Below, piece by piece: positions 7,115 to 31,518 of a stretch of 41,955 nucleotides of DNA (its first letter is position 1; the number at the start of each line of letters is the position of its first letter). The notes below the pieces were generated by a model, which did not search any database, was not told the origin of the DNA, and saw only the letters and a program-made list of their open reading frames with translations. The stretch lies in IMG/VR virus record IMGVR_UViG_3300028388_000491, positions 1-41,955 of that record. The stretch is one strand, 5' to 3'. This stretch comes from a virus. Position numbers and translations under genes: made by a program.

Positions 7115-7123
7115 TGGTATAAT
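7115..7123 (+). promoter_or_regulatory. Extended -10 promoter for the neck operon
   Basis: TGG plus TATAAT (7118-7123) lies 14 bases after the capsid terminator and 18 bases before the ATG at 7142. The region where a -35 would lie is the terminator's T-run, so the promoter must rely on the extended -10. An AGGAGG site at 7131-7136 serves the gene. Confidence 0.7.
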
Positions 7124-10322: not shown

Positions 10323-10331
10323 TGTTATAAT
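10323..10331 (+). promoter_or_regulatory. Extended -10 promoter for the tail tube gene
   Basis: TGT plus TATAAT (10326-10331) stands 53 bases upstream of the tail tube ATG at 10385. Only a weak -35-like TTCATA lies about 19 bases upstream. Unlike most promoters here it yields a leader with a ribosome binding site (GAGGTG, 10373-10378). The leader contains no obvious hairpin. Confidence 0.55.
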
Positions 10332-10384
10332 TACCTTGAGGAAACACATCGCCCAGTTTATTCTAAGAAAAAGAGGTGAATAAA

Positions 10385-11047
10385 ATGGCATATTCAAGAG
10401 GTTCAAGTGCTAACATTATTGTTGGTGCAGCAGCTTTGTTTACATACGAGGCTGGACCAATTGGTCAGGCTACGGACGGCACAATTACTGACGTTCAGGC
10501 CGAGCTAGACTTGCCCGACTACGTTGACGGTACTTCTTTCAAGGACACCTTGCAAGATGACGCAGGATTCCGTAACGTTGGTTACACCATGAATGGTTTG
10601 GAAATTGCTTTCCAGCCAGACTTTGGTGAGGTACAGGTCGACCAGCTGCTAGACGTTGCACGTCTATACAAGCAGGGAATGACTGTGAACATGAACACAG
10701 CATTCGCAGAGTCAACACTAGAGAACTTGCTCTTTGCGTTGGCCAACAAGGATGAGGACTTGGCAACCGTTAGTGGAAACCCAACAATGGACATGTCCGC
10801 AGGTGACATTGGAGACGTTCCTATCGAGCGTGGCCTTGTTGCTATCGGTCCTGGTTCAGGTTCTGCTGACGAGGCAGCCAACCTAGAGCGTGTGTACGTT
10901 GCATACCGTGCGTTGTCAATTGAGAACGTTACAGTATCAGCTAAGCGTGACGAGGCTACAATGTTCGAGGTTTCATTCCGTTTGCTACCAAACGACAATG
11001 CATCCTACGGAAAGATTGTAGACCGTACCATTACAGCATCTAGCTAG
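10385..11047 (+). CDS. Major tail tube protein
   Basis: Encodes 220 residues. I chose the ATG at 10385 because GAGGTG lies 6 bases before it; a GTG at 10376 is part of that ribosome binding site. The protein starts MAYSRGSSANIIVGAAALFTYE and has the beta-rich layout of tube proteins (DYVDGTSFKDTL, GLEIAFQPDFGEVQVDQLLD, then a C-terminal strand set EATMFEVSFRLLPND). Like the capsid gene it favours CGT for arginine and C-ending codons, which suggests high expression. The location just before the tail assembly chaperones and the strong terminator afterwards support the call. Confidence 0.85.
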   Translation: MAYSRGSSANIIVGAAALFTYEAGPIGQATDGTITDVQAELDLPDYVDGTSFKDTLQDDAGFRNVGYTMNGLEIAFQPDFGEVQVDQLLDVARLYKQGMTVNMNTAFAESTLENLLFALANKDEDLATVSGNPTMDMSAGDIGDVPIERGLVAIGPGSGSADEAANLERVYVAYRALSIENVTVSAKRDEATMFEVSFRLLPNDNASYGKIVDRTITASS

Positions 11048-11070
11048 TAAAAATATAACTTAATAAAAAG

Positions 11071-11099
11071 CAGCCCTGGCATTTTGCTGGGGCTGTTTT
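11071..11099 (+). terminator. Rho-independent terminator after tail tube gene
   Basis: CAGCCCTGGC (11071-11080) pairs with the following GCTGGGGCTG (11086-11095), with two G-T wobbles near the middle, around a T-rich loop. A TTTT run follows at 11096-11099. It starts 23 bases after the tail tube stop codon. Confidence 0.82.
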
Positions 11100-11107
11100 G
11101 CTATAAT
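11099..11107 (+). promoter_or_regulatory. Leaderless extended -10 promoter for the long tail chaperone
   Basis: TGC plus TATAAT (11102-11107) begins at the last base of the terminator T-run. The ATG at 11114 is 6 bases downstream of the box, exactly where transcription would start. There is no Shine-Dalgarno and no -35; the -35 position falls in the terminator hairpin. Confidence 0.75.
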
Positions 11108-11113
11108 AGATAT

Positions 11114-11821
11114 ATGGCAACTTCAATATATAGTATCGAGTACATAAATTTAATTGACGACACAGTGCTTGAGATTACTCCCCTCAAGATAAAGTACATG
11201 CGTCAGTTTATGGACGCATTTCAAGAAATAAATAAAGCTAAAGATGACATAGAGGCAATAGGTAGTCTGGTAGAGTGTACAAGAATAGCAATGAAGCAGT
11301 ATATGCCATCTTTTAAGACCACAGAAGATGTGGAGGATAACATTAGCCTCCCAGAAATTTATAAGCTTATGGACTACTCTGCAGGGGTAAAATTTAATGA
11401 AAACTCAGATAAAGAATTTAAAGAGCAGAAGCAAGAACAAGACAAAGGAAATACCTGGGAAGATTTAGATTTGGCTAAGCTTGAGTCAGAGGCTTTCTTG
11501 CTGGGCATTTGGAAAGACTTTGATGAGCTAGAACGATCTATGTCTATGCCTGAGCTACTGGCTGTTTTAGGTGAAAAAAGAGAGCTAGACTACAGCGAAC
11601 GAAAATTCCTAGCAGCTATTCAAGGAGTAGACCTAGACAAACACACATCAACTGGACCCAATGGTGGAGACCCTTGGGAAGAAATGAAGGCTAGGGTATT
11701 TAGCAAGGGGAAGGCCAAGGATGCAAATGACATTGTGTCTTATCAAGGAAGCAAGGCATCTAAAGCTGGTTTCGGTATTGGCATGGGCTTAGATTATGCG
11801 GATATGACTTCCCAAGAATAG
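11114..11821 (+). CDS. Tail assembly chaperone, long form
   Basis: Encodes 235 residues from the leaderless ATG at 11114. Residues 14-90 form the chaperone core (ITPLKIKYMRQFMDAFQEIN, then LVECTRIAMKQY, then SLPEIYKLMDYSAG), which is repeated in the next gene. Residues 95-235 add a second domain (ESEAFLLGIWKDFDELERSM, ELLAVLGEKRELDYSERKFL) typical of the extended GT-type product, with a Gly/Lys-rich tail. Such chaperones coat the tape measure during tail assembly. The long form is usually made by a frameshift from the short one; here it is one unbroken gene ahead of it. I see no slippery site needed to read it. Confidence 0.82.
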   Translation: MATSIYSIEYINLIDDTVLEITPLKIKYMRQFMDAFQEINKAKDDIEAIGSLVECTRIAMKQYMPSFKTTEDVEDNISLPEIYKLMDYSAGVKFNENSDKEFKEQKQEQDKGNTWEDLDLAKLESEAFLLGIWKDFDELERSMSMPELLAVLGEKRELDYSERKFLAAIQGVDLDKHTSTGPNGGDPWEEMKARVFSKGKAKDANDIVSYQGSKASKAGFGIGMGLDYADMTSQE

Positions 11822-11828
11822 CCCCCTG

Positions 11829-11837
11829 TGCTATAAT
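11829..11837 (+). promoter_or_regulatory. Extended -10 promoter for the short tail chaperone
   Basis: TGC plus TATAAT (11832-11837), with a partial -35 TTCCCA at 11809-11814 separated by 17 bases. The ATG at 11876 is 38 bases downstream and has an AAGGAGA site (11861-11867). This is the best-formed of the TATAAT promoters. Confidence 0.68.
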
Positions 11838-11875
11838 TGATATAGCCAAAAGCCCTAAAGAAGGAGAATATATAC

Positions 11876-12199
11876 ATGGCAAATACTACGGTAAATGAAC
11901 AAAAAGAAGTCAAGCTAATTGACGGTACCAAAATAAACGTGAGACCACTCAAGATTTCTCTTCTTCGTGAATTCATGAAGAAGTTTGAGGGTATTGCAGC
12001 GGTGGCAGATGACAATGATAAGTCAATGAACTTGCTTATGGAGTGTGTACAAATCGCTATGCGTCAGTACAAGCCTGAGCTTGCAGATGACAAGGATGCC
12101 CTAGAGGAAAACTTGGATCTGCCTACTGTTTACAAGATTGTCGAGGAAGCTTCTGGAATTAATATGTCCCAGACTCCTGTCGGCAACCTTGGCAAATAA
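11876..12199 (+). CDS. Tail assembly chaperone, short form (paralog of upstream gene)
   Basis: Encodes 107 residues, with AAGGAGA 8 bases before the ATG. Almost its whole length aligns with the N-terminal half of the preceding gene: INVRPLKISLLREFMKKFEG against ITPLKIKYMRQFMDAFQE, LMECVQIAMRQYKPEL against LVECTRIAMKQYMPSF, and DLPTVYKIVEEASG against SLPEIYKLMDYSAG. It lacks the second domain, so it corresponds to the short gpG-like chaperone. It lies 19 bases before the tape measure. Separate promoters could set the long:short ratio that other phages set by frameshift; that is inference. Confidence 0.82.
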   Translation: MANTTVNEQKEVKLIDGTKINVRPLKISLLREFMKKFEGIAAVADDNDKSMNLLMECVQIAMRQYKPELADDKDALEENLDLPTVYKIVEEASGINMSQTPVGNLGK

Positions 12200-12218: not shown

Positions 12219-15170
12219 ATGGCTGATATTCAGTCAAACATTAATATAAATGTAGATACTACGAATGCCATGGCGGCAATTCGTAATCTACAGTCTCAGA
12301 TATCAGCATTCCATCAACAAATGCAGAAGTCGGGGTCTGCGGCAAACGCCGCAGCCTCGGCTAACATGCAACGTAACTTAATAAATAATGTAAACGCTAC
12401 TAAAAAGTTTTCCGCATCGCTCACAAATGTAAGCACGGAAACTGAATCTTTTACTAATGCCCTAGAAAAAAACAAGCTGTCCATGGGACAGTACTTTAGA
12501 TACGCAGGGGCATCCTCAAGAACTTTTGGAAGAGTATTCCGCAATGAGTTCAACACAATCAGCAAAGTGGCTGAGTCACGTGTAAGAACTCTACAAACTC
12601 AGTATGTCAAGATGGGCCGTGATGCAAGCGGTGCGATGAAGGCAATTAAGATTAGACCTCTGTCTCTTGATATGCAAAATCTTTCTACACAAACAATGTT
12701 GGCTGCTCAAAAACAGCAAATTTTTAATCAACTTCTCAAACAAGGCTCAACCAACCTTCTAAACTTTGGTAAAAATACTCAGTGGGCTGGACGGCAGCTT
12801 ATGGTTGGTTTTACTGTTCCCTTGTCAATCATGGGTGCTACAGCTATCAAAGAGTTTCAAAAGATTGAAGAGCAGGTAATCAGACTTAAGCGTGTTTATG
12901 GAGACATGTTTACAACTGATGCTGAAACAGAAAAAGCAGTCGAAAGCGTCAGACGGCTAGCAGACGAATTTACTAAATACGGTATTGCAGTTGAGTCAAC
13001 TATCGGACTAGCAGCGAGTGTTGCTCAAATGGGTAACGTCGGTGCCGATATGATCAATCAGGTAACTGAAGCAACCAAACTTGCTGTTTTGGGAGGTATG
13101 GAGCAAGAGAAAGCTCTAGACACAACCATCTCTTTGACAAACGCTTTTGGAATAGCAACAGAAGACCTTACAAACAAGATTAACTTTCTAAACGCTGCTG
13201 AAAACCAAACAATCCTAGCTATTGATGACTTTACTGAAGCAGTACCCAAAGCTGGTTCAGTTGTTGCACAGCTTGGTGGTAGCGTAGAAGATCTAGCATT
13301 TTTCTTAACGGCTATGCGTGAGGGTGGCGTAAACGCATCTCAAGCAGCTAACGCACTTAAGTCATCCCTGGCACGACTTGTAAACCCAACCAAGCAAGCA
13401 CGAGAAGACCTGGGTAAACTAGGTATCGATATTTTAGATATTGTAGAAAGCAATGTCGGAAACTTGAGGGGCACCATCATGGATCTGGGGGTAGCCCTAG
13501 ATGAACTAGAGCCACTACAAAGATCACGTGCCTTGGAAGAGCTGTTTGGAAAATTTCAATTTGCTCGTATGTCAACACTGTTCCAGAACATTTCTAAAGA
13601 AGGCTCTCAGGCTCAAGAAATTCTAAAGCTTACTCGTAATAGTGCTGCAGAGTTGCAGGTACTGGCAGACAGAGAGTTGAGTCGTGTAGAAGAGTCACCA
13701 GCAACTAAGCTTCAAAAATCAATCGAAAAGCTGCAGGCATCCCTAGCACCAATTGGTGCAGAGTTTGCAAAACTAGTAACTCCACTGGTTGAGTTTATTA
13801 CAGGTGTTCTTAAGAAGTTTAACGAAATGGGAGATGGTGCTAAGTCATTCGTTACTGGATTAGTTACTGTACTTGGTCTGATTGCTCCCGCTGCTATTAT
13901 GGCTTTTGGTTTGATAGCCAACGGTATAGCAAACGTAATGAAGGCATTTAATGCTTATCGCTCATTCTTGCAAATTTTAAGTGGTTCTAATAGAGATATA
14001 ACTACAAGCACTCAATACATGACTCAAGAGCAGCTTGAGTCTGCTTCTGTAGCCACAAATCTTGGTCAAGCACACCAATACTTGGCACAACAGTTTACTG
14101 TAGAGGCCAGTGCATTAGCACAACTAACTGAAGTTTATCGTGCCGCCACAGTAGAACAACTCAAATATAATGCAGCTACTAATGGAACTCCAGCAAGGCC
14201 AGTTGGTGCTATGCGTGTTGCCCCACCAATAACTAGGGCAACTGCGGGTAGAAGAGCTGTATCTCCTGGCGGACCAGTTGGTTATAACAAGGGTACTCTT
14301 AATGTGCCAGGACCAAGAGGTGCAGGAGATATTGTACCAGCAGTACTATCTCCAGGCGAAGCAGTTATCCCAGCACGCCAATCCCAAAAATACTCTGGCT
14401 TCCTAGAAGCAATTATGAATGATCAGGTTCCAGGCATGATGTTTGGCGGAATAATGGGCAGGATGATGTCTAGGTTTAAGAAGCCTGGCTTCTCTGAAAT
14501 GAGCAAGATGCGACAAGACCCTAGGGTTATCCAAAAATGGATGCGTGGTCGCAGAAACAAGGTGGGTGTCAGAATGTCTTCTGACAACTTGTTTGAAATG
14601 CTTGCTAGCGGAGATAGCAGATATAGCAACTTGTTTGATACGGGTAAGTTTAACCAAGAAAGAAGGGTCGGTCTTAGGTACGCAAAGAATCGATTCTCTA
14701 ACTTTTTGACAAGATTTGGCTTTGGAAAAAGAAGGGTTGCGAGGCAAGGATTCGATTACGGCACGGGCAACTTGCTTAATGACGAAACACTTAGGTATGG
14801 CAACTTAACTCTAGTTCCAAACAAGAAAGCAATTGAAAACAGGACTACCTTTACCTATGGAGATAGTTATAACGCTCGCAATGAGCAGTTTGCGACACCT
14901 CTGCCATGGAAGCAGGCAAGTAAAGCCACTCAAGAACAGGTTAAGGGTGCGTATACTAGCAAAGACAAGTTCTTTGTAGAAGCACAGATTATGGGTGGGT
15001 TTGACCTTAAAGATGTAGAAAGAATTATCACTACACAGCCTAGGCTAAAACCAGTAATTGAAGACAGGCTAAGAAGAGCTGGATACAACATTCCTGTTGG
15101 TCTGCCAAGATACTCGTTTATGGATCAGCTAAAGAGGATATTCTATCCAAAAACCAGCTTCCAACAATGA
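12219..15170 (+). CDS. Tape measure protein, N-terminal part
   Basis: Encodes 983 residues. A weak AAAGGGG site precedes the ATG. Residues 1-130 are helical and Gln/Asn/Ala-rich. Residues 170-560 match the TP901-type tape measure core (GRQLMVGFTVPLSIMGATAI, LAASVAQMGNVGADMI, REGGVNASQAANALKSSLARL, PTKQAREDLGKLGID). A hydrophobic segment lies at about 543-575 (VTGLVTVLGLIAPAAIMAFG). A PGE-type motif at 692-727 ([20 protein letters not shown]) is followed by a basic Arg/Lys-rich region. It ends in an ATGA overlap with the next frame, which continues tape-measure features. It sets tail length and is likely exported with DNA at infection. Confidence 0.9.
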   Translation: MADIQSNININVDTTNAMAAIRNLQSQISAFHQQMQKSGSAANAAASANMQRNLINNVNATKKFSASLTNVSTETESFTNALEKNKLSMGQYFRYAGASSRTFGRVFRNEFNTISKVAESRVRTLQTQYVKMGRDASGAMKAIKIRPLSLDMQNLSTQTMLAAQKQQIFNQLLKQGSTNLLNFGKNTQWAGRQLMVGFTVPLSIMGATAIKEFQKIEEQVIRLKRVYGDMFTTDAETEKAVESVRRLADEFTKYGIAVESTIGLAASVAQMGNVGADMINQVTEATKLAVLGGMEQEKALDTTISLTNAFGIATEDLTNKINFLNAAENQTILAIDDFTEAVPKAGSVVAQLGGSVEDLAFFLTAMREGGVNASQAANALKSSLARLVNPTKQAREDLGKLGIDILDIVESNVGNLRGTIMDLGVALDELEPLQRSRALEELFGKFQFARMSTLFQNISKEGSQAQEILKLTRNSAAELQVLADRELSRVEESPATKLQKSIEKLQASLAPIGAEFAKLVTPLVEFITGVLKKFNEMGDGAKSFVTGLVTVLGLIAPAAIMAFGLIANGIANVMKAFNAYRSFLQILSGSNRDITTSTQYMTQEQLESASVATNLGQAHQYLAQQFTVEASALAQLTEVYRAATVEQLKYNAATNGTPARPVGAMRVAPPITRATAGRRAVSPGGPVGYNKGTLNVPGPRGAGDIVPAVLSPGEAVIPARQSQKYSGFLEAIMNDQVPGMMFGGIMGRMMSRFKKPGFSEMSKMRQDPRVIQKWMRGRRNKVGVRMSSDNLFEMLASGDSRYSNLFDTGKFNQERRVGLRYAKNRFSNFLTRFGFGKRRVARQGFDYGTGNLLNDETLRYGNLTLVPNKKAIENRTTFTYGDSYNARNEQFATPLPWKQASKATQEQVKGAYTSKDKFFVEAQIMGGFDLKDVERIITTQPRLKPVIEDRLRRAGYNIPVGLPRYSFMDQLKRIFYPKTSFQQ
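14292..14399 (+). repeat. PGE-motif module, copy 1 (tape measure)
   Basis: Codes for residues 692-727 of the first tape measure gene. Key residues are the [17 protein letters not shown] and QKYSG blocks. A clearly related copy lies at 15314-15421 and a more diverged one ([17 protein letters not shown]) near 21185-21240. The copies are similar at protein level and partly at DNA level. Confidence 0.8.
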
Positions 15171-18100
15171 ATCGCCAAGGAATATATAAAGACAGATCAT
15201 ATAAGCCTGGGTATGGCAGAAAGTCTGGAACTGGAAGCGACTTTATCACCGAGCCAGGGCTCGAAGGCAACCTATTCCAAAGGCTGTTCGGTGCTATCAA
15301 GGGTTATGAAAACGGCGTATTTAGTGTTCCTGGACCAAAGGGTGCTGGAGACATCGTTCCAGCTATGCTTGCCCCAGGCGAAGCGGTAGTTCCAGCAAAA
15401 CAAACACAAAAATATGCTGGATTAATTAAGGGAATCATTTCTGACAACATTCCTGGGTTTGTGAAATCTAACAAAAAAGAGATTCCCAAAGTAAACAATG
15501 CAGTTGTTACTAAAGGTACGTCACAGGCACAGCTTAGCATGGAAAAGCAAAAAAACGAAATGCTTGCTGCAGCCAAGTCGGTCGGCACAGAAGTTTTTGA
15601 AGCACTTACTCAAAGGATTAAAGAGGCAGGCGGTCAGTTAACACAGAGCATAAAAAATGATCCTCAGTTCTCTCTTCTTAATAGTATGACTTCTGCAAAG
15701 GGTGGAAGGAGTACTGGAAGTCAGGGGATGGTAAAGTCTCATGGTTCAGAAAAAACTCCTTTGTCAAAAGAACAGGCTATGCAGATGGCCTCTCCCGCTC
15801 AACAAAAAAACTTAAAAAATGCCAGCTCTATCTCAGCATTTAACAATTTAACATTCCTAGAGCCAGCAGGTGCAAATCAAGGAAAGCTTTCTGGTCAAGA
15901 GCGTGGGTCATTTATTAAACAAAATCCAGAAATGTTTATGAATCAAATGTCCCAGCAATCTGGAATAGATGCTTCTGATCCTGATTTTAAAAGATTTGCT
16001 GTCAATGTTGCAAATCAACTAGAGCAAGCGGGAGCCGAAGCAGTAACCGATAGTCAGTTTGCAGAAATGGTCGAGCGGGCCATGGAAGAAGAGATATACG
16101 ATGCTGCTAAAGGAACCAAAGAAAATGTAAAGCAAGCGTTTACGGAGGCTAAGAAAACTAGTGCAATCGGATACACAGTAACTGATAAAGATGGAAAAGC
16201 TAGAACCAATAGAATAAATATTACAGAGGCGAACAAGGGCAAGTCTGTAGACGGAATAGAAACAATCTCTAAGGGCACAAAAGGATATCGAAGCATTTCT
16301 ATTCCCAAAGGTGCACACGAAGTAGCCGATGAGTTCCAGGCCGACATTACTAAGGCCAGGGTTCAAAAAACAAAGACAGCTGGGGGCAAAAGACGAGCGT
16401 CAAAACCTCAAACAACTGTAGCAGCACAAGAGGCAAAGCAAGATGCACAAGCATACACTAACGAGTTTAACAATACTGTAGAGCAGGCACCAACTCCTTT
16501 TGAAACGATTGATGACCCCGACTCCGACGCTCAAGCAGCGGCTGCTGGTGCAAGTAATGGTCGTAAGTATCGTGATAAAATGGATGCTGAAATAGCGGCT
16601 CGTAGAGCACAACCCACTCCAGGTCAGACCACGCAGTCTGGAGCACCAGTACCTCCAGGACAAAGAAGAAGATCTGGAGCACCTGCTGGAGCACCTCCAC
16701 CACTGCCCACCTCTCCAGGCGGGGTACCTCAGCCAGGAGGGTACACTAGCCCAATCGTAGACCCAATGGGAACTCCAGAAGGCAAGAGAGAAACCAAGAA
16801 AGCTGCTAAAGGATTTTTAGCAAACTTTACAAGTAAGTTTAAGAATGCTGGAGCATCTATTGGTAAGCAGGTAATGAGTGGGGTTGAAAACTCCTCACTT
16901 GGACGAGGAATTGCCGCCAAGTTAGGGGCGGCAGCGGGAAATACAGTAGTTGATAGCAATGGTAATGTTATGTATGATGCCGATACAGACACAAGCTATG
17001 ATAAAGATGGAAATGCTGTAGGTGCGGGATACGCAGCAAATCAAGCTGCTCAAAACCGAGCTGAAGCTGGGAAAATTGACGAAGATGTTCTTAGAGACCC
17101 CGAAACTGGAGATCCAGTTCTTGATAAAAAGGGAAGGACTATCTCTAAGAAAGAGGCAGAAAGACAAACTCGTAAAAATGCTTCTAGACAAAAACGAGGT
17201 ATGGTAGCAGGTCGTCTAGCTGGAGCAATGGGTTCAGCCTCTATGATGCTAGGTATGACATCAATGATGCCAGGTGTTGGGGATAATCCAATGATGCAAG
17301 CAATTCAAGGATTTATGCCAGCCTTGTTCGGACTCTCAGCAGTGCTACCACTATTAGCAGCATTACCAGCACCCCTCGCAGCTTTAATCGCTGTAGTGGC
17401 TGCTGGAGTAACAGCTTTTGTCATGTTTAACAATCATATGGACAAGCTAGCCTCTGAAGCAAGAAAAACCGCAGAGGTCATGGGCGTAGGTACTCAAGCC
17501 ATGGAAAAACTCGCAGAAGCATCTGGAAATGTAACTGCTACCCAGGCCATGGATGTTACCAGATCCGAAGCGTTTCAGCCTTTTTCTATTGCAGCAGGAA
17601 AGAACCCCTTCGGAGCCCAGTTTGTGGATTCTGAAACAGGTCAAGAGCTATTGGGAGAAGTTAAAAAAGCTGGACTTGAAAATTCTGGAGGTAGTCTGTT
17701 CGCACAGCTTTCTTCAGCAGTTGCAAGCGGTGCTCTGGACGTTAACCAAGCAAGGCAAATATCTTACGCCATTGGAGAAGAACTAAGCAATCAGAATATT
17801 GCTATGGATGTAAACGCAAAGCTTACTAAGATGTTTGGTCCCGATGGACAGAACTTATTGCAAGACCCTTTGGGTATACAGCTTCAAATAATAGAGATGA
17901 CCTCTGAAGACTTAGATAAAAGCTTTGAACGGCTAGACGAATCGTTGAGCCTGTCTCCATTAGAAACAGAAAAAGCCGTAGAAAGTCTTAAAAAAGATGT
18001 CAAAGAAGGTCTAGATGAAACATACGACAAAGCAACAGAAGAAGGATTTTTAGCACCAGTTGCAAAATTCTTTAGTGACACTTTTCCATTTTTAAGCAGA

Positions 18101-20449
18101 GGTCTAATTGACGGATTTAACCAGGCAGGAACCGAGATGCTTGCTCCAGCTGCCCAATCTGTCAGACAATATCAGGTTACTATTGCAAATGCAGAGGCAT
18201 ATACAGTAAAGGCACAAAATGCATTGCAAAATTTCCAGTCCAGCGTAGATGCACTCGATGTAAACTACGACAAGCAAATTGAGGCAGCAAAGGCAGCAGG
18301 GGACCAGGAAAAGGCTCAAGAGCTATTGCTTGAAAAAGAGCAAAAGCGAAACGAGCTAATGACCCAATACGGAGACGCCGTAAATCAAGTAAGAAAAAAC
18401 TTCGATAATTATGCAAATGCTCAAGAGGGACTTTCTGACACTCAGAAAAAACTGATGGACTCTGTAGACGGTTCCATAAAAAGAAAATTTGAAAATGACA
18501 AAGACTCTCAAATAATTTTCAAGGCTGCAGAAGAAAGCCTCAAGAATATGAACCTTCTGGCAGGAGATGAATATGAGCTTAAAATGCTTCTTGCAGCAGA
18601 TGCAATTACCCTAAACACGTTTGACTGGATCTCTACTAATTTAGATGCAGGCTCAGTATCTAGAGTTCTTAAGCTGGATGCAAAACTAACTGGAAAAGAC
18701 TTGAACACCTTCACCTTACTACTTTCTAGATTTGGAGATGATAATCAGGCTAACTTTATTGCTAAGTTTGAGACGATAGATAATGCACAGGGTGCAACAG
18801 AATTGCTTAATACATTTAGTCAGATAAATCAGCTAGCAGATACTTTGGGAGAAGAAAATGCCCAAGAGCTAATGAACTTCTATGTAGACCCAGATAACGC
18901 AGAGCAACTAGACAGGTTGAAAACGTCTATTGATGAAATAGCCAGTTACGAAGGCGAAAAAATAACTGTAGATTATATACAGAGTATTGAAGGCGGAGAG
19001 CAGTTTGCTAACGTGATTAAGGCAAACCAAGAATATTTCGACTCTTTAGACAAACAACAACAAATTACATACACGCAAATTATACAAACTATGGTTCTTT
19101 CGGATCCGATTCAGCTGCAAGAAGACGCAATGGCTTTTGCGATAGCTAGAGGCCTTAGCCCAACTGGGCCATATAGTCAAGAGATGATAGATAAAGCTGT
19201 TGTAGATTATGCAAATTACATAGCAGAAATCCGAACCAACTTTTTAGAGGCAATGGGGACCTCCAGCACAGGAAGTGGATCGGGAGGCAGCGGCAACGGG
19301 CCCGTGGCGTCTTCTCTAGACCAAATACTGAATAAGCTCAGGGACGTGCGGGATGAAACTGTACAGCTGAAGGATACTTGGGTAGACTCTTTTGCAGAGA
19401 TTAATAGAGTAGTTGGCGAGGGTATAGATAAATTTGAAGGATTGTCTCAACAACTTCGTAAGTTAGGTGCAAATCAGCCACTAATTCAATACATTCTCGG
19501 AATGAGTCCAGAAGAATACGAAGAGCGTAAAGATGAGCTTTTAGACTTTAGTGGAGCCAAAGTTGTAGGCCTAAAAGAAGGGGCAGAAAATCTACAGGTT
19601 GCCCTAAACGCTATTAAGCTTGGTGAATTTCAAGATGCTCAGCAATCATCCATCCAGGCTATTGGTGCACAGAATACGGCGATAACAAGGCTGGTTGCGG
19701 CAGGATATAATCTAGAAGAAGCCTATGAACTTGTATCAGACGAAACCCTTGCCTATGCAATTGCAGCAGAAGAAAACGTAGATGTGATGAACAGGCTTGT
19801 TGAAGTAACCAAAGAGGCTGCATCAGCCAATGAGTCATTTGCTTTCTCTCAAAAACTGGTAACGGATGCATCTGCAACAGCAACAAAAGACTCAGTCACC
19901 GACTGGATATCTGAAAATATTCCTGACATAAATAAGGCAATGTTTGATGCAGTCCTTTCCGATGAATATATTTCAGGACTACTAGACACTCTCCAGGGCG
20001 GAGGACTAATTACTCAAGAACAGTTTAAGCAGATAGAAGACTTCTTTAATAACCTAACCGCAAGCGGAGAGGTAGATCTTAAAGTAGGAGATATAGATTT
20101 TGCCCAAGCACCTATTGATGAGTTTAGCCAGGGCATGTCAAATGTTCAAAATAAATTTAAGATTATGGAAACAACAATCCAACTTAAATACGAAGGCCTG
20201 AACAGAGCAGATGAAAACATTATTCAATCAGCTGAAAATGATATTGCCCTACTTAACTATGAGCTAGACGACCTAAACGCCGAGCTAGACGATATATCAG
20301 AAAAAGAGCAAGAAGTTAATGAAAAGTACGATAAGCGTTTTGAAGCACTGGATAAAGTTAAAGAGGTTAATAGCGATATTGCTGCTCAACAAAAAGAGCA
20401 GCTTACCATTGCAGACGCACTTTCACTAACGCTGTACAAGCTGCACTAG
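15167..20449 (+). CDS. Tape measure protein, central part
   Basis: Encodes 1760 residues. The ATG overlaps the preceding stop (ATGA) and has no ribosome binding site, so translation would need coupling or a frameshift. Residues 50-85 carry the second PGE module. Residues 300-430 are charged and helical, and 480-530 are Pro/Gly-rich linker. The stretch at 690-755 contains hydrophobic segments ([35 protein letters not shown]). Residues 870-1750 are long helices with coiled-coil character and Gln/Asn/Ala bias. At its end [12 protein letters not shown] breaks the coiled coil, while the -1 frame carries on (see next gene). It is longer than a typical whole tape measure on its own. Confidence 0.85.
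15314..15421 (+). repeat. PGE-motif module, copy 2 (tape measure)
   Basis: Codes for residues 50-85 of the second tape measure gene: [20 protein letters not shown] followed by [12 protein letters not shown]. Nearly every motif position matches copy 1 at 14292-14399. Confidence 0.8.
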
Positions 20450-28423: not shown

Positions 28424-28432
28424 TGATATAAT
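28424..28432 (+). promoter_or_regulatory. Extended -10 promoter, nearly leaderless
   Basis: TGA plus TATAAT (28427-28432) overlaps the stop region of the preceding gene and lies 9 bases before the ATG at 28442. There is no Shine-Dalgarno and no good -35. It starts the last structural gene and perhaps the early-replication block. Confidence 0.65.
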
Positions 28433-28892: not shown

Positions 28893-29435
28893 TTGGGGAA
28901 AAAGAACGGGTATAGAACCAGAGAAGAATACAACGACGCTCCGATCATACCAGGCAATAAAAAGGTCTGGTTTTTAAATGGAGACCTAGTAAGGGTTCAT
29001 CACCTCAATCGATCTAACGGAATAATGTCAGTATACAACATCATTAAAGATCAGATTGAAAGCTGTTTAATTGCAGACTTTAAGCGTAATCGTGAGCGTG
29101 CATACACTGTCGGAGAAACTGCAGACTTAGTAAATAGGCACAAAAAGTATATGCCAAGTCTAATGAATCGTGAAGTTATCCCAGAACCTACTGGAAGTCA
29201 AAAGGGTGGAGAGCGAGGGTGGCAAGTAAGAAGTTACTACTCAGAGTCGCAAGTAAAAGAGATTCGTGATATACTGGCAACTTATCATATTGGCAGACCA
29301 AGAAATGACAAATTGATAACAAATGATATAACTCCTACGGTTCAGGAGTTGACAAGACGTATGGGAGATGGTATGCTTACCTATACAAGAACTGAAGACG
29401 GTAGATTCATTCCTGTGTGGAGCGAATCAATTTAG
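28893..29435 (+). CDS. MerR-like helix-turn-helix DNA-binding protein
   Basis: Encodes 180 residues from a TTG at 28893, chosen because AGGAGAG (28881-28887) stands 5 bases before it and because upstream in-frame starts lie inside the previous gene. The middle segment (residues about 69-105) reads RAYTVGETADLVNRHKKYMP then NREVIPEP, the MerR-type winged helix-turn-helix pattern, followed by YYSESQVKEIRDIL, a typical dimerisation/wing end. A short N-terminal beta domain (KKVWFLNGDLVRVHHLN) precedes it. It stands at the boundary between structural and replication genes, so it may regulate or take part in replication; that is inferred. Confidence 0.7.
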   Translation: MGKKNGYRTREEYNDAPIIPGNKKVWFLNGDLVRVHHLNRSNGIMSVYNIIKDQIESCLIADFKRNRERAYTVGETADLVNRHKKYMPSLMNREVIPEPTGSQKGGERGWQVRSYYSESQVKEIRDILATYHIGRPRNDKLITNDITPTVQELTRRMGDGMLTYTRTEDGRFIPVWSESI

Positions 29436-31191: not shown

Positions 31192-31518
31192 ATGGTTAAG
31201 ACACATCATAAGTCGATTAAAAGGTTTGGCCTTGATGGTAGTATTAAGGACGACAGTTTTTTACCAAGACTTAAAAACGAATATCTCAGACTCCTTGAAA
31301 CAGAGATGAGATTAAAAGGTTATGTGCCAAGACTTGACATTAACCCAGACTTTACAATACAATACAATTATGCAAGAGAATACTTTGAATTCGAATTATC
31401 AGTATACGGAATATATTTAGGAAAGAAGAAGAGCCAATGGGTCTTAGGAGTGGACGAAACAAAGCTCATATATATGGAGAGCAGCAGGTCAAGCGAATCC
31501 TTGTCGGAAGCGGCCTAG
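31192..31518 (+). CDS. Conserved hypothetical protein overlapping primase
   Basis: Encodes 108 residues from a leaderless ATG. It begins with a basic stretch (VKTHHKSIKRFG), followed by a helix (LPRLKNEYLRLLETEMRLKG) and a beta-rich part (YNYAREYFEFELSVYGIYLG). Its last 82 bases overlap the primase gene in another frame, and the final 20 residues look like low-complexity overlap product (ESSRSSESLSEAA). No family is recognised; operon position suggests a replication accessory role. Confidence 0.7.
   Translation: MVKTHHKSIKRFGLDGSIKDDSFLPRLKNEYLRLLETEMRLKGYVPRLDINPDFTIQYNYAREYFEFELSVYGIYLGKKKSQWVLGVDETKLIYMESSRSSESLSEAA

Follow-up and report, generated by a model that had tools for sequence, protein, structure and literature searches.

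Few recoding events in tailed phages are as well conserved as the frameshift in the tail assembly chaperone gene, and the textbook chaperone pair, such as gpG/gpGT of phage lambda, is made in this way. In lambda, the long form arises by a –1 frameshift (Xu, Hendrix and Duda 2004, as cited in PMC7302621). Alternatives to recoding have also been described. Some Microbacterium cluster EA phages express two chaperone ORFs separately (PMC7302621; PMC11659878), and the title of a study by Vladimirov, Gautam and Davidson (2022, cited in PMC12859696) indicates that T4-like phages use a mechanism other than frameshift. In the open-access literature we found no described siphovirus chaperone pair of tandem paralogs, though one may still be described elsewhere.

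Here we analyze a virus record of 41,955 bases (IMGVR_UViG_3300028388_000491), taken whole and hereafter called the window, in which two adjacent genes most probably encode both tail assembly chaperones, short and long, of a Stanwilliamsviridae-related phage of the siphovirus type. We propose that in this lineage gene duplication replaced the frameshift, with unequal expression of the two genes setting the short:long ratio; to this explanation as a whole we assign a probability of roughly 80%.

The chaperone locus and its relatives

The pair is located between the major tail protein gene and the tape measure gene, all on the plus strand. The major tail protein gene (10376..11047) matches phrog_2175 at E 2e-31, and the name of this family, 'protein with Ig domain', is also what the major tail protein is called in the Streptomyces relatives. 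A promoter motif search placed an extended –10 element upstream of it on the plus strand (10323-10331). Its true start is probably ATG 10385, rather than the listed GTG at 10376; this ATG is preceded by AAGAGGTG and is a better fit than the GTG start. The long chaperone gene (11114..11821; P0001, 235 residues) contains in one frame an N domain (residues 1-97, 11114..11404), which is homologous to the N ORF of Stanwilliamsviridae, and a C domain (about residues 110-225, 11441..11788), which tblastn relates to the second chaperone ORF of Streptomyces and Rhodococcus phages. The short chaperone gene (11876..12199; P0002, 107 residues) encodes an N domain only. Start codons were set by homology, all forms beginning with MAT. 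Downstream lies the first of two tape measure ORFs (12219..15170), assigned by TIGR01760 (E 1.8e-27) and phrog_10030 (E 6.9e-97). The portal protein of the window is closest to those of Streptomyces phages (48%).

The sequence-only reading had held that an unbroken long gene comes first and is followed by a separate short paralog of its N-terminal part. Comparison of the two proteins by alignment and structure prediction bears this out, for they are paralogs both by sequence and by predicted secondary structure. The short protein aligns to the N-terminal 96 residues of the long protein, with 34% identity and 64% positives over 96 residues (BLASTP, E = 4e-20), and both match phrog_10504 (2.3e-20 and 2.8e-18), the long protein alone also matching phrog_10474. 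The AlphaFold2 models of both proteins share the same order of elements in the N domain, two strands followed by four or five helices. Against the PDB, the best match of the short model is the HK97 gp13 chaperone (2OB9) over 104 columns, a weak match with an E-value of 0.5 and a probability of 0.51-0.63; YqbN (3KLU) is also among its fold matches, all with weak E-values. When the short model was compared with viral models, the top-ranked match with a name was 'Tail assembly chaperone' (E 3e-6), and most of the lower-ranked named matches are chaperones too. The long model found no meaningful match in the PDB fold search, nor did a sequence search of PDB chains return a relevant one. No Pfam family exceeded the cut-off, GP24_25 and Phage_TAC_19 each being hit weakly by two members of the chaperone set; altogether, the Pfam, NCBIfam and PDB sequence searches of the two chaperones gave nothing decisive.

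We searched 277 related loci with profiles of the N domain and the C domain; 272 of them could be classified, the remaining five being incomplete or cut short. Two architectures were found. In 133 of the 277 loci, a long gene with N and C domains in one frame is followed by a second N gene, as in the window; in 139, a single N gene is overlapped by the C domain in the –1 frame, and there is no second N gene. Hybrids or intermediates that combine a frameshift with a second N gene are absent from the 272 classified loci. Alignment and frame comparison showed that the C domain found in the –1 frame in the frameshift relatives is in frame with the N domain in the long gene of the window. The isolate phages with homologs are Stanwilliamsviridae Streptomyces phages and a few Rhodococcus phages, in which many of the homologs are annotated as tail assembly chaperones. 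In a tblastn search of isolate phages with either window protein, each record had one N place, and no cultured tandem example was found; metagenomic virus contigs are the source of every tandem locus. Such an origin might suggest that the unbroken long gene and the separate short gene are sequencing or assembly artefacts. However, the arrangement recurs in 133 loci of divergent sequence from many samples, purifying selection acts on both genes, and the intervening signals are conserved, so that an artefact is refuted for practical purposes. Among bacterial genomes searched for relatives, 11 stretches fitted a pattern and none of them encoded a relative.

The tape measure gene of the window is itself split over 12219-20449 into two ORFs of 983 and 1760 residues, with an ATGA overlap and a shift to the –1 frame. 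In the nearest relative (L030), one unbroken tape measure ORF of at least 1990 residues matches both window ORFs, and the ORF also ends early in three other tandem loci (L018, L072 and L093). A protein-level repeat flanks the break (14300-15400): one copy lies near the end of the first ORF, the other close to where the second begins. The split may be real, a frameshift or an assembly error.

Slippery sites and the direction of change

A search for slippery sites in the relatives separated the two architectures. Among 75 distinct frameshift overlaps, 66 contain an in-phase X_XXY_YYZ heptamer, namely CCCAAAC in 50, CCCAAAT in 11, GGGAAAA in 3 and others in 2. In contrast, such a heptamer occurs in only 7 of 87 distinct long genes within codons 85-125, a longer stretch than the overlaps, and mostly as A-runs; CCCAAAC, the commonest ancestral site, is absent from this stretch in all 87. 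Moreover, the long gene is unbroken in each of the 133 tandem loci. The overlap with an in-phase heptamer that marks a programmed –1 frameshift gene was not found at the tandem loci, where the N and C domains share one frame.

The seven heptamer-bearing genes could be taken to mean that the long gene still gives both forms, by internal frameshift or early termination, and that the short gene is an extra copy. Yet the heptamer is missing from the great majority of long genes, and no complete tandem locus is without the short gene, which is strongly conserved; we find this reading hardly credible and retain the one in which each form has its own gene. On the count of 7 in 87, a residual frameshift in the long gene was rejected. 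A functional frameshift extending the short gene was also looked for and was not seen, as 75 distinct short genes contain no CCCAAAN site and no C-domain frame follows their stop codon.

The nine overlaps that lack a heptamer are all Bmoc/Jay2Jay-like (L110, L114, L123-L126, L128, L130 and L278). In phages of this type CCCGGAA stands at the place of CCCAAAC/T, and a slip would therefore need a non-canonical site. Two other frameshift loci, L230 and L249, carry CCCAAATTTA, which gives two overlapping in-phase heptamers.

To orient the change, trees were rooted on the Rhodococcus phages; in two of these, the annotation gives the chaperone gene as joined and frameshifted. In the C-domain tree, all tandem loci are nested within the frameshift loci, the support for the tandem group being modest (94/56). 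The tree of tail protein and tape measure protein likewise places the tandem loci inside the frameshift loci, with the exception of the frameshift locus L230, which groups with three tandem loci (support 93). Given this nesting in the rooted trees, the frameshift arrangement is ancestral. A single change would explain the data, with L230 reflecting a possible module exchange or a second change.

The N-domain tree, which rests on 98 columns, resolves one long clade (100/96) and one short clade (100/98). The short clade joins the frameshift relatives L234, L230, L140 and L186 (95/95), and the long clade lies outside on a long branch. According to the sequence-only reading, a shared clade of both N domains would support duplication. 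Each copy forms a clade of its own, and a single joint clade was neither recovered nor rejected: a tree constrained to unite the two copies is 31 log units worse (p-AU 0.154). The grouping of the short clade with frameshift relatives to the exclusion of the long clade is what one would see if the second N domain had been acquired from a related phage by recombination, rather than by tandem duplication, the working mechanism being the same. However, fast evolution of the long N domain would by itself push that copy outward in a tree of so few columns, the joint clade withstands the test above, and it is to these frameshift relatives that the long gene's C domain is closest. We regard acquisition as unlikely and prefer tandem duplication.

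The two copies have diverged at different rates. Compared over the same genome pairs, median identity is 70% for the short N domain and 49.5% for the long one, and the short copy is the more alike in 96% of cases. Median dN is 0.22 for the long N domain versus 0.04 for the short one, a roughly fivefold higher rate of amino-acid change. By the dN/dS ratios, about 0.15 for the long N domain and 0.06 for the short gene (rough values, with dS near saturation), both genes are under purifying selection. A slower short N domain and a faster but constrained long one are expected if the two roles separated. The short gene looks like the direct heir of the N product of the frameshift gene, with the long copy free to diverge.

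Promoter and translation signals

In the window, the gap between the major tail protein gene and the long chaperone gene contains an intrinsic-terminator-like hairpin on the plus strand (11067..11099; –23.2 kcal/mol, z –3.93), a feature absent from the sequence-only reading. The hairpin directly abuts the –10 box of the long gene, an extended –10 element TGCTATAAT (11099..11107, plus strand) whose hexamer ends 6 nt upstream of the ATG. The long gene has no Shine-Dalgarno sequence (duplex –0.4 kcal/mol). The promoter of the short gene has the extended –10 element TGCTATAAT at 11829..11837 of the plus strand, just 3' of the long gene stop codon and 38 nt upstream of the short ATG, and the Shine-Dalgarno sequence AAGGAGA at 11861..11867 (duplex –9.7 kcal/mol). 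A generic sigma-70 scan of the window ranked only the short gene promoter high; the long gene promoter ranked low because it lacks a –35 element.

Upstream sequences were then compared across 64 distinct tandem loci. Long genes have a –10 hexamer 4-11 nt from the start codon in 61 of the 64 (17% in shuffles), at a spacing of 6 nt in 50 and 7 nt in 8, and the extended TGn accompanies this proximal –10 in 60 loci. Short genes have a TATAAT 20-38 nt upstream in 63 of the 64 (28% in shuffles), together with a strong Shine-Dalgarno sequence in all 64. The mean Shine-Dalgarno duplex is –2.3 kcal/mol for the long genes versus –10.0 kcal/mol for the short ones. Because the –10 hexamer is conserved in nearly every long and short gene, both promoters of the window are more than chance matches. 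The sequence-only reading had ascribed to each gene a promoter of its own and had set a leaderless long gene against a short gene with a strong ribosome site, and both features are kept throughout the group. Frameshift genes resemble the short genes in the arrangement of promoter and Shine-Dalgarno sequence (81 of 84; mean duplex –9.9 kcal/mol).

Leaderless genes of Actinobacteria have a TANNNT box about 12 bp 5' of the start codon (PMC3160421). The long genes show this geometry, with a mode of 12 bp from the first T of the hexamer and no Shine-Dalgarno sequence. From these signals, the transcript of the long gene is predicted to start at the ATG itself and would be leaderless. A terminator-like hairpin is found 5' of the long gene in 61 of the 64 tandem loci (0.5% in shuffles), and in none of the 64 between the long and short genes.

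An alternative for the short gene is that its product is a regulator or decoy which shares the N domain and is no longer a tail chaperone. Against this, the gene keeps the ancestral promoter and Shine-Dalgarno sequence, lies directly 5' of the tape measure gene and is the more conserved of the two copies, and its model matches tail assembly chaperones. A regulator or decoy is very improbable, and we continue to treat the short protein as a chaperone.

Similar signals occur elsewhere in the window. The extended –10 motif TGnTATAAT/TATACT is present seven times on the plus strand (2479-2487, 7115-7123, 10323-10331, 11099-11107, 11829-11837, 28424-28432 and 29267-29275) and once on the minus strand, a total of 8 against a shuffle mean of 3.5 (8 or more in 4 of 100 shuffles), and most of these motifs lie just 5' of a gene. 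Leaderless-type starts are seen at the gene starting near 2495 and at 31192, which has a TATAAT 6 nt before it, and an extended –10 element is combined with a Shine-Dalgarno sequence at the 7142 gene and at the major tail protein gene. This pattern suggests two expression classes across the genome.

A putative route from frameshift to duplication, and comparison with known systems

At the sequence level, the comparisons establish the paralogy, the architecture, the loss of the slippery site, the conserved signals and the direction of change, and they lead us to the following putative model. The ancestor would have had one gene, making both forms via a –1 slip at a CCCAAAC/T-type site, and this gene was presumably duplicated once in the lineage. 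The downstream copy would have kept the ancestral promoter and the strong Shine-Dalgarno sequence and lost its C domain. In the upstream copy, the N and C domains would have been joined in one frame, with loss of the slippery site, and a leaderless promoter would have been set against the preceding terminator. Since there is no terminator between the genes, transcripts from the long gene promoter would read on into the short gene and carry it as well. Such read-through, in addition to the short gene's own promoter and strong ribosome site, would yield the short form in excess without recoding. We infer from these signals that expression level sets the protein ratio. Finally, the tape measure protein would be where the short and long forms co-assemble, and, if lambda gpG/gpGT is a guide, the C domain may recruit the major tail protein.

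A more tentative extension, which we put forward as a doubtful possibility, is that the long N domain has specialized to a role of its own at low copy number, such as nucleation at one end of the tape measure protein, with the ratio set by the leaderless/Shine-Dalgarno pairing. If so, the short:long ratio would shift with the ribosome state of the host, unlike a fixed frameshift percentage. Our main model, duplication in place of frameshift, predicts that frameshifting is only one way to reach unequal amounts of two chaperone forms. The locus looks like a natural case in which a frameshift was exchanged for gene duplication, and, with a well-populated tandem lineage and an extant frameshifting sister lineage, each gene can be set side by side in its states before and after the change. 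In environmental phages of this kind, one of the two genes, or both, will be mislabelled by annotation tools built to expect a joined gene.

The closest described counterparts are the frameshifted chaperone genes of the Stanwilliamsviridae Streptomyces phages Faust, BillNye, Bmoc and Jay2Jay and of the Rhodococcus phages Dorin, Trina and NiceHouse, which have homologous N and C domains and occupy the same position between the genes for the major tail protein and the tape measure protein. The promoter and Shine-Dalgarno sequence of their frameshift genes are of the same kind as those of the tandem short gene. Unlike the tandem loci, the Streptomyces and Rhodococcus phages have a single chaperone gene in which the frames overlap by –1, in most cases with a CCCAAAC/T-type or GGGAAAA heptamer, and no second N gene. 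Lambda gpG/gpGT and HK97 gp13 comprise a short N-only form and a long N+C form, as does the tandem pair, but lambda makes the long form by frameshift and the tandem phages by a separate gene.

Another parallel is found in T4 gp26 and gp51, which we take to be the chaperones studied by Vladimirov and colleagues. They are related to each other (BLASTP, E 2e-6), both match PF12322 and phrog_150, and gp51 has an additional C-terminal match to phrog_634. Like the tandem pair, they are two separate paralogous genes of unequal length without a frameshift; unlike it, they are divergent genes on opposite strands of a myovirus, whereas the tandem genes lie on the same strand in a siphovirus-type phage. 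The window proteins have no PF12322 match, and phrog_150 is matched marginally by the short protein only (E 0.066). The Microbacterium EA1 phages resemble the tandem pair in having two chaperone genes, the longer first, and no frameshift. However, the chaperones of Balsa (EA1) are not detectably paralogous (E 0.44) and match the two halves of the 312-residue phrog_18843, so that the N and C domains are split and there is no full-length long form, which the tandem pair does have. Of these two precedents, then, T4 gp26 and gp51 are paralogs and the EA1 pair is not. Chaperones made without a frameshift are known elsewhere, and it is the gene order, the regulation and the frameshifting sister lineage that set the tandem case apart.
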